Assembly: GCA_903883965.1 (NCBI GenBank)
Contig: CAISCU010000023.1
Location: forward strand, 1 to 62,354
From: an uncultured Bacteroidota bacterium
GTDB taxonomy: Bacteria; Bacteroidota; Bacteroidia; UKL13-3
DNA: 62,354 bases
Reading direction: 5' to 3'
The notes under the pieces were generated by a model. That model was given only the letters and a program-made list of their open reading frames with translations, searched no databases and was not told where the DNA came from. Each line of letters begins with the position of its first letter. Position 1 is the first letter of the stretch. A program made the translations under genes and the position numbers. This document shows positions 43,123 to 46,030 of the stretch, one piece after another.

Positions 43123-44262
43123 TTATTTTAAAATGCTTCTAGCAATAACCAATTTCTGAATTTCACTGGTTCCTTCTCCAATGGTACACAATTTGGCATC
43201 TCTGTAAAATTTTTCTACCGGAAAGTCTTTGGTATAGCCATAACCTCCGAAAACTTGAACTGCTTCATTGGCGGCCCAAACAGCCACTTCACTGGCATAG
43301 TATTTTGCAAAAGCACCTTCTTTGTTTACACTCATGCCTTTGTTTTTTCTATCAGCAGCTTGGAGTGTTAACAATTCAGCAGCTTCAATTCTGGTTGCCA
43401 TGTCGGCTAATTTAAAAGAGATACCCTGAAAATTGCTAATTGGCTGTCCAAACTGATGTCTTTCTTTTGCATACTTTTTAGCTGCTTCATAAGCTCCCTT
43501 AGCAATTCCCAATGACAATGATGCAATTGAAATGCGGCCACCATCTAAAATTTTCATGGCTTGTTTGAAACCTTCACCTTCTTTTCCCAACATATTTTCT
43601 GCAGGAATTCTACAATCTTCAAAAATCAATTCGGCAGTTTCTGAAGCACGCATGCCTAATTTGTTTTCTTTTTTGCCACCTCTAAAGCCCGGAGTGCCTC
43701 TTTCTACTACAAATGCACTGATTCCATTAGAGTCTAATAACTCGCCTGTTCTTGCCAATACAACAGCTATTTCACCTGAAATACCATGTGTAATCCAATT
43801 TTTACTGCCATTCAAAACCCATTCGTCCCCATCTCTCTTAGCAACACATTGCATGCGCATGGCATCACTTCCAGTGTTTGCTTCAGTTAATCCCCAAGCA
43901 CCTACCCATTCTCCAGTTGCCAATTTGGGCAACCATTTTTGTTTTTGAGCTTCGTTTCCAAAATATAGAATATGACCTGTACACAATGAATTGTGAGCAG
44001 CCATACTCAAACCAACAGAGCCACATACTTTAGACATTTCTATGATGGCTGTCATGTATTCAAAATAGCCTAGGCCAGAACCTCCGTAATTTTCAGGTAC
44101 CAATATGCCCATTAAACCCATTTGACCCATTTCTTTGAACAATTCACGAGGAAAAATCTGCGCTTCATCCCATTCCATGACATGTGGCTTAACATGTCTT
44201 TCTGCAAAATCTCTGACCATATTTGCAATCATTTGCTGGCTTTCTGTTTGTTCAAAGTTCAT
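43123..44262 (-). CDS. acyl-CoA dehydrogenase
   Basis: FAD enzyme of fatty or branched-chain acyl-CoA oxidation, 379 residues from ATG 44262 ([11 protein letters not shown]); an upstream ATG at 44304 would add 14 residues of non-family sequence. FAD-binding segments [12 protein letters not shown] and WITHG are present, and the C-terminal [18 protein letters not shown] carries the active-site glutamate region. The whole-length similarity is to short-chain/butyryl-CoA-type dehydrogenases, but chain length cannot be fixed. It converges on lipB with a 2-base gap. Confidence 0.94.
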
Positions 44263-44333
44263 CATTTGAGTAGGTTTTTGTGCCTGCAATATCTTCAATT
44301 CCATGCAATAATTGATATACCCGAAGTGTTTTT

Positions 44334-44975
44334 TTATTTACTCAATTGAATATATGGCTCAATTAATTGATAAATAGAATCGGTAATGGTTTTGATGGCT
44401 TTTAAATCTGACAATTGCTGAAATGGGCCATGTTGCTCACGGTAACGAACAATTTGTTTAGACAAAGTAAATTTAAAATACGGATGTTGTTGGAGCCTTT
44501 CTAATGCACAGGTATTTAGATTGATTTGCTGGATACGTTTGGCATTCACATAAATTTGATCTTGTAAATCGTACAATACATCTTCTTGAAAGCCATAAAT
44601 CTCTGTCAATTGATTGAGTGAATGAAAGCCCCCCAATTTGGTTCTATAAGCTATGATTTTACCGGCAAGCTTAGGCCCAATTTTATATAATTTTTCCAAT
44701 GCAACGGAGTCGGCCTGATTGATGTCAATTTTAGCTGATTGTTGATGGTTTGAAGTCTTTACCCGGTTGGACACAATTGGGTTTTCAGGCATCGGAACAG
44801 AGGTTTGAGTGATGTATTGAACCTGTATAGGATCTTGATGAACCAATAATGGGATACAAGCATTTGCAAGTCCTATGAATCCCAATAAAAAGAGCAACAA
44901 GTAAATGCCTTGCTGCTCTTTTTGTACTGTATAAAAATACGATTGAAAAAATTGTTTAAGGTTTGTCTTTTTCAT
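44334..44975 (-). CDS. membrane-anchored helix-hairpin-helix (ComEA-like) protein
   Basis: 213 residues. One transmembrane helix (about 23-45) is followed by a short linker and tandem helix-hairpin-helix motifs: [29 protein letters not shown] (about 83-111) and [29 protein letters not shown] (about 148-177). ComEA proteins bind DNA non-specifically outside the inner membrane during uptake. This one has the fold and topology, but no other competence gene is adjacent. It overlaps the 56-residue gene by 20 bases. Confidence 0.88.
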
Positions 44976-45126
44976 GGTTTTCTGGGGCTTTGTTCAACTT
45001 TGGATTTTTTACGATGAAAAAATACAACAGTGCAAAAACAAAGGCGCCAAAAAAGATTTCGGTGAAGAACCAAAACCAGAAACCTGCGGGTTCTACTTGG
45101 TCTGTAAGCAAAATAAATTTATGCAT
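44956..45126 (-). CDS. 56-residue membrane protein in an overlapping operon
   Basis: A short gene with ATG at 45126 and TAA at 44956. The product begins MHKFILLTDQVEPAGFW, has one strongly hydrophobic aromatic-rich helix (about residues 16-39, WFWFFTEIFFGAFVFALLYF) and ends with a charged tail ([16 protein letters not shown]). It overlaps the RmlD-like gene upstream by 8 bases and the helix-hairpin-helix gene downstream by 20, all on one strand; this tight packing and the protein-like composition are the evidence that it is real. No family was recognised. It may be a small partner subunit of a membrane protein; that is a guess. Confidence 0.75.
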   Translation of the reverse strand: MHKFILLTDQVEPAGFWFWFFTEIFFGAFVFALLYFFIVKNPKLNKAPENHEKDKP

Positions 45127-46030
45127 GGTGAAGTGAATTGAGTTGATTGTCTACAATTTGAAGGCCTTCCTTAAAGGTGTGTGCTTGGTAATGAAGTATG
45201 GTTTTGGCTTTTTCAATTTGAAATCCTGTAATGGGAGGACGTTTTGCAGGTTGTTGAATGCCTTCACTAGAAGAAAGGCTAATGAGTGATTTGTCTAAAT
45301 TCCAAAAATCGGCCACTTGAACCACCAAGTCGTATACACTCATAAAATTTTGCCCAGAAATGTGAAAGATACCTGAAGCTTTTTGTGCTGCTGCCAAAGC
45401 ACATCCTGAGGCTAAGTCCTCGGCCAAAGTAGGTGTTCTGAATTGATCGGCAACTACTTGAATGGACTTGCCACTTTCCAATGCATTTTTTGCCCATAAA
45501 ACAATATTTGAACGGCTCATGTCTTTGACAACACCATATACCAGTACTGTTCTGATGATGCTCCAAGAATTTGAATGTGCTTGAACCAATTCTTCTGCTT
45601 TGAGTTTTGAAAGGCCATAATAACTTAGCGGATTGGGCTTTTCGTTTTCAAGTAAAGGCCCATGGGTACCATCAAAAATAAAATCAGTAGACAAGTGTAT
45701 GAGGTGCGCATGGACTTGATTGCAAGCATTTACTAAAAACTGAACTGCAGTTACATTGAGCAAATCGCAAGCAGCTTGGTCTAGTTCGCAGGCATCAACA
45801 TTGGTCATTGCAGCGGTGTGAATGACGACATCTGGTTTAAATGTGGTCAATACTTGGTTCACTTCAACTTGGTTAGTAATATCTAAAGCACTATAGGTAT
45901 AAGTTCCCGGAAATGGATACCTATCGGCACCTTTAGCTGTGGCTATCAATTGAACCTCTGGAAATTGTTTGTAATAATCCAGCAACTTTTGACCGAGTAA
46001 CCCATTGCTGCCTGTAACCAATACTTTCAT
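45119..46030 (-). CDS. RmlD-like dTDP-4-dehydrorhamnose reductase / NAD(P)-sugar reductase
   Basis: 303 residues. The extended short-chain dehydrogenase fold has a nucleotide motif GSNGLLGQKL (about 7-16), DVVIHTAAMTNVDACE, LSTDFIFDG and the catalytic YYGLSKLK (YxxxK). This is the RmlD arrangement, and the canonical reaction is reduction of dTDP-4-keto-rhamnose. No rmlA, rmlB or rmlC lies nearby, so the substrate is uncertain and the gene symbol is withheld. First gene of the overlapping trio. Confidence 0.88.
   Translation of the reverse strand: MKVLVTGSNGLLGQKLLDYYKQFPEVQLIATAKGADRYPFPGTYTYSALDITNQVEVNQVLTTFKPDVVIHTAAMTNVDACELDQAACDLLNVTAVQFLVNACNQVHAHLIHLSTDFIFDGTHGPLLENEKPNPLSYYGLSKLKAEELVQAHSNSWSIIRTVLVYGVVKDMSRSNIVLWAKNALESGKSIQVVADQFRTPTLAEDLASGCALAAAQKASGIFHISGQNFMSVYDLVVQVADFWNLDKSLISLSSSEGIQQPAKRPPITGFQIEKAKTILHYQAHTFKEGLQIVDNQLNSLHHA

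Follow-up and report, generated by a model that had tools for sequence, protein, structure and literature searches.

A conserved small membrane protein gene overlapping the start of a ComEA-type gene in one family of uncultured Bacteroidota

In a contig of an uncultured Bacteroidota bacterium (62,354 nt, hereafter the window; its own genome is G000), a 56-codon reading frame between an RmlD-like gene and a gene for a helix-hairpin-helix (HHH) protein is, with very little doubt, a real protein-coding gene (Table 1). Its known distribution is limited to a single family of uncultured Bacteroidota; there it evolves under purifying selection and keeps a fixed relation to the HHH gene, whose start it overlaps. 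From its sequence and setting we tentatively suggest that the product, a predicted single-pass membrane protein, partners the ComEA-type HHH protein in the membrane.

Table 1. Coordinates in the window of the small gene, its overlap with the HHH gene, and the neighbouring genes
Feature	Coordinates	Strand	Evidence or remark
Small membrane protein gene, 56 aa	44956..45126	minus	ATG start; ORF, relatives, dN/dS, AlphaFold2 helix, helical periodicity
Overlap of small gene 3' end with HHH gene start, 20 nt	44956..44975	minus	Counterpart overlaps in relatives
HHH gene, 213 aa, ComEA-type	44334..44975	minus	HHH_3, TIGR00426, PDB ComEA chains, AlphaFold2
RmlD-like gene, 303 aa, upstream neighbour	45119..46030	minus	RmlD_sub_bind 218.8 bits; distance variable
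Acyl-CoA dehydrogenase-like gene, downstream of HHH	43123..44304	minus	Neighbour; common beside HHH in many Bacteroidia

An earlier note, made from the sequence alone, had proposed a small membrane protein gene here that shares 8 nt with the RmlD-like gene and 20 nt with the HHH gene and fills what would be a 143-nt gap between the neighbours if the small ORF were ignored. All three numbers agree with the mapped frames (RmlD-like ORF end at 45119, HHH ORF start at 44975), and the gene itself is now supported by conservation, synteny, purifying selection and a confidently modelled single helix. The RmlD-like neighbour scores 203 bits against TIGR01214, below the cut-off of 224.05. The openness of the frame is by itself weak evidence for a gene: under first-order Markov models, the chance that one given frame stays open over 56 codons is 0.045 with regional composition, or 0.08 with the frame's own. 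This lends something to the idea of a chance open reading frame, which conservation and selection nonetheless refute so thoroughly that we give it almost no credence; the ORF stands above chance because it is conserved in relatives. The one antisense frame examined is not kept in the closest relative (L002), where stops interrupt it.

When 58 related genomes were searched with the protein, 22 of them, the window's own included, gave one match each at E <= 3.1e-5, and all 22 belong to the family of the window genome. The neighbours are the same at 21 of the 22 loci, RmlD upstream and HHH downstream; the other locus (L021) has RmlD upstream, and its contig ends past the small gene. Searching with a profile of 18 small-protein sequences (A1) gave matches at E <= 0.001 in 47/64 family genomes, 46 of them strong (E <= 2.8e-18, own genome counted), while the 47th, in G420, is partial and lies within another protein. 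With completeness of 90% or more and contamination of 5% or less required, 34/45 genomes match (G420 included), and the gene occurs in nine of the 14 genera of the family. Outside the family, nothing better than E 6.7e-5 was found in 395 class genomes and 296 phylum genomes (partly overlapping samples); the matches at that level, a 32-aa frame and one within a 1130-aa frame, are attributed to chance on score and frame length. A scan of named contigs with a narrower alignment found 18 loci, all labelled Bacteroidetes/Bacteroidia/Bacteroidota, Sphingobacteriales or Chitinophaga pinensis MAGs. A second match in the window genome (G000:C17, E 0.0076) was rejected, since this 81-aa ORF shares only a short aromatic stretch and matches nothing in Pfam.

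Stops or frameshifts in close relatives, named in advance as grounds for rejecting the gene, do not occur within it: 44 of the 46 strong matches are stop-free, and in the remaining pair (G011 and G022) the only stop flagged, a TAA, sits just before the ATG. The EPAGFW motif that the earlier note had picked out is present in the window protein, but as a whole it is confined to close relatives.

Comparison of dN with dS, suggested as a check, shows purifying selection: in 16 of the 17 pairs compared, saturated ones counted, dN is much lower than dS (which saturation leaves undefined in L075/L085 and, over the core alone, in L081/L086). The sole pair against the trend, L016/L017, differs by a single non-synonymous change and no synonymous one. 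Between G000 and G003, dN is 0.015 and dS 0.220; eight codons changed, six of them synonymously, with one, zero and seven changes at codon positions 1, 2 and 3. In this same pair the small protein is 96% identical, RmlD 89% and HHH 71%, so that the small gene is under stronger constraint than the larger HHH neighbour that it overlaps.

AlphaFold2 models a single helix at residues 16-40, with pLDDT 97 at residues 21-30 and low-confidence ends. In 13 sequences the N-terminal flank has a net charge of -2 to +1, and the 12 residues past the helix 0 to +6. Under the positive-inside rule this points to an N-terminus outside and a C-terminus inside; the protein is thus probably single-pass with N-out/C-in topology. 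The helix was analysed in 26 sequences, eight near-identical ones of the 34 distinct loci being left out. A 27-residue core aligns across them without gaps; W19, E23, L34 and Y35 are invariant, F16, V30 and F37 vary only to Y, I and Y, respectively, and all share the signature F/Y-x-x-W-x-x-x-E ... L-Y. Conservation along the helix is periodic, with a maximum at 98-100 degrees per residue (at 100 degrees, p = 0.00025; p = 0.00375 once the choice of angle is allowed for), which means that one helix face, consisting of F16, W19, E23, G27, V30, L34 and F37, has been held constant. This is the pattern that a helix packed against a fixed partner would be expected to show. Short, with one helix and with selection acting on the protein, the gene product fits the small single-span membrane protein kind.

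These same data bear on whether the peptide matters at all. The frame could serve chiefly as a translated leader, by which HHH translation is coupled or tuned, its product irrelevant, and the invariant presence of the overlap with the HHH start would suit such a leader; yet amino acids are under strong purifying selection, changes fall mostly at third positions, and conservation tracks a helix face, so that we consider a mere leader very unlikely.

The position of the small gene is tied to HHH. The HHH start is visible in 33 of the 34 distinct loci, and in all 33 the small gene overlaps it, by 11-38 nt (counted from the earliest in-frame HHH ATG, or in L022 from the second); the overlap is 17 nt in 16 of them and varies by multiples of three only, preserving the relative frame. 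The distance to RmlD, by contrast, ranges from -10 to +898 nt, and at three loci RmlD lies 125, 436 or 898 nt away with the HHH overlap still kept. A constant overlap on one side and a variable distance on the other indicate that HHH, not RmlD, is the linked gene, and the end/start overlap suggests that the small protein and HHH are probably made together and may work together. A role as membrane partner of the RmlD-like reductase would be consistent with the overlap or close spacing seen at 22 of the 34 loci (-10 to +10 nt); given the three displaced loci, and RmlD genes that occur away from HHH in family genomes without the small gene, it is hard to credit.

The association does not run in both directions. 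HHH was found in 14 of the 18 family genomes without a strong small-gene match, and two of these, G015 and G024 (genus g13), keep RmlD adjoining HHH with no small gene between, a point against partnership. At the remaining small-gene-free loci, HHH is preceded by other genes or a contig edge (G441, G430), or that side is not resolved. The small gene thus goes with HHH, and HHH, even the RmlD-HHH pair, can exist without the small gene.

On profile and model evidence the HHH neighbour is of ComEA type and anchored in the membrane, and proteins of its kind are nearly universal in Bacteroidia. A membrane helix spans residues 18-44, and the HHH region begins near residue 82 (AlphaFold2 and profiles); the protein scores 119.1 bits against HHH_3, and passes the ComEA repeat model TIGR00426 (60.3 bits, cut-off 53.1). 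Against the full-length comEA model TIGR01259 it reaches 79.5 bits, short of the 152.35 required; we therefore use the label ComEA-type and not ComEA itself. Its profile also matches the PDB 'ComE operon protein 1' chains 8dss and 8dfk, which we take to be of B. subtilis type. HHH relatives occur in 56/60 class genomes, nearly all without the small protein, so the small protein is not needed for HHH in general.

Anchoring and control of DNA receptors in Bacteroidota are known so far mainly from mutant screens. In Riemerella anatipestifer, also of the Bacteroidota, a transposon insertion in the HHH gene RA0C_RS02645 reduced natural transformation below detection, and the authors placed its product in the periplasm (PMC8459023). 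Judged from its kind and spread, the window HHH protein is likely an ortholog, and it may have a role in DNA uptake. The window genome encodes a ComEC-type channel (PF03772, 200.6 bits); the adjoining acyl-CoA dehydrogenase gene, on the other hand, gives no hint of a DNA-uptake role.

A conserved face also appears on the HHH anchor helix in gene-bearing lineages (p = 0.014, 24 sequences; p = 0.005-0.008 in a repeat with 28 sequences), and none was detected in a mixed set of 23 HHH sequences from loci without the small gene (p = 0.39-0.62). A length filter dropped L022 from the first comparison, and the repeat dropped L009, which has no anchor pattern, from its 29. As support for partnership this contrast is suggestive only, because the sets differ in divergence and there is no matched control, the candidate control (the family of G037) having only seven genomes.

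The best reading, which we put at slightly less than even odds, is the following scheme. Ribosomes would translate the small gene and then pass through the stop/start overlap to HHH. The small protein would sit in the inner membrane as a single-pass protein, its short N-terminus outside and its basic tail inside, and its conserved face (the seven residues named above) would pack in the membrane against a partner helix, for which the N-terminal anchor of the ComEA-type protein is the likeliest candidate. It would then be an accessory subunit peculiar to this lineage, stabilising or positioning the DNA-binding HHH protein, probably in DNA uptake. The strongest version, in which it is a dedicated subunit of a membrane-anchored ComEA-type DNA receptor in this one Bacteroidota family, bearing a helix face with a buried glutamate, we rate as rather unlikely; it would place the protein in a DNA-uptake machine that has no described small inner-membrane subunit.

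Large membrane complexes often have small single-span subunits, and perhaps the small protein serves such a complex encoded elsewhere, for example a transporter or a respiratory one, and merely shares the operon with HHH. The conserved aromatics and the glutamate suit a subunit of this sort, and elsewhere the slot before HHH is filled by unrelated genes (a permease; a transporter and small subunit; RmlD). The genomic setting speaks against it, in that all 34 distinct loci adjoin HHH or a contig edge where HHH would follow (L021), and the HHH overlap is retained even with RmlD displaced. We hold this explanation to be possible, if somewhat doubtful.

Among 27 HHH loci outside the family, RmlD lies directly upstream of HHH in five (L101, L103, L115, L116, L119), and in three others (L094, L096, L100) a 47-48-aa one-helix protein follows an NSS-type transporter. 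The latter belong to a group (A5; L094, L096, L100 and L136-L165) of 33-51 aa proteins with one helix and a typical tail of PEPDSFSENDD, often encoded just before HHH. Their genes lie downstream of transporter-type membrane proteins, with the SNF domain confirmed in one. A5 matched in 34/198 class genomes at E <= 0.001, that in G004 being a chance match inside a 482-aa frame. Against the MetS-like NSS model, seven of 21 members give a weak match (best E 0.0022) and most fall below it; A5 proteins are probably an undescribed branch of NSS small subunits.

The small protein resembles the MetS family (NF033493, PF16951) and A5 in having about 50 aa and one membrane helix, and A5-type proteins, like it, are encoded directly before HHH in several families; unlike these, it follows RmlD and not a transporter, and it lacks the EPDSF tail. 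It might be related to, or a remnant of, the MetS-like small NSS transporter subunits that occupy the same slot in other Bacteroidia families. In favour of this, besides the three of 27 extra-family loci with such a protein between transporter and HHH, 16 of 30 A5 loci hold HHH in the same locus, size and layout are alike, and T-E, YFF and K-x-P occur in both. Profile-profile comparison (hhalign, A1 against A5), however, gave a probability of 21% over 12 columns; the small-gene model finds none of the MetS-like proteins, and the MetS-like model misses the small gene in G000; none of the 18 A1 members has a MetS-like match in NCBIfam or Pfam; and G000 has no NSS transporter by PF00209, which was matched in 6/14 control genomes. 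Neither homology nor a shared function is thus supported by profile comparison or gene content, and we regard this origin as improbable.

Known families otherwise offer little. The small protein had no above-cut-off match in Pfam, NCBIfam, PHROG or PDB; the hits to 7TM_GPCR_Str, YMF19, SA1362, YajC, ATP synthase subunit B and further models are of the near-chance sort that hydrophobic helices give. YajC comes closest in layout, with a hydrophobic helix and then a basic tail. Four of 18 members match PF02699 weakly (best E 0.0046) and seven of 18 match TIGR00739 (best E 0.011), none of these matches being listed for the window protein itself; since they fall short of the curated cut-off and of any credible level and the small protein lacks the YajC cytosolic domain, the likeness is best explained by composition. 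It also lacks an HHH domain, which sets it apart from the ComEA-type proteins (TIGR00426/TIGR01259) to which its downstream neighbour belongs.

In the literature we found no ComEA accessory protein of small-protein form, and the work found on ComEA-associated small membrane proteins, MetS/NSS small subunits and coupled Bacteroidetes small proteins does not name the family. Global small-ORF catalogues, such as that of PMC11364881, may hold it unlabelled, and no protein-family library searched here (Pfam, NCBIfam, PHROG) gives it a name. These proteins would make up a new, lineage-restricted family of putative small single-span membrane accessory proteins, in itself a familiar kind. Should binding to the ComEA-type protein prove true, the family would give a way into the anchoring and control of DNA receptors in Bacteroidota; should it not, the gene is still a clear case of a small, lineage-specific membrane gene of the sort that size cut-offs or neighbour overlaps can hide.

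We finally note some peculiarities of individual loci. (i) The partial match in G420 lies in a 139-aa protein (L166; G420:C255, 1053-1493, minus strand) whose first ~35 residues resemble the small protein, sharing an EPxSGFxFWFxTExFFAG stretch (59% identity over 22 aa). The protein differs in its length and in bearing a DUF5684 domain (PF18936) at residues 50-126, and was found in only one of 62 family genomes; it may be a chimera, or the two may share an N-terminal (membrane) module. (ii) The acyl-CoA dehydrogenase-like gene accompanies HHH in at least 18 of the 27 loci outside the family (L093-L119), all of them short, so that the two genes form a widely kept neighbourhood. (iii) HHH length varies within the family, from 213 aa here to about 300 in other genera, and alignment of the window protein with those of L008-L020 shows that the longer ones carry an extra HHH-like stretch near the N-terminus.
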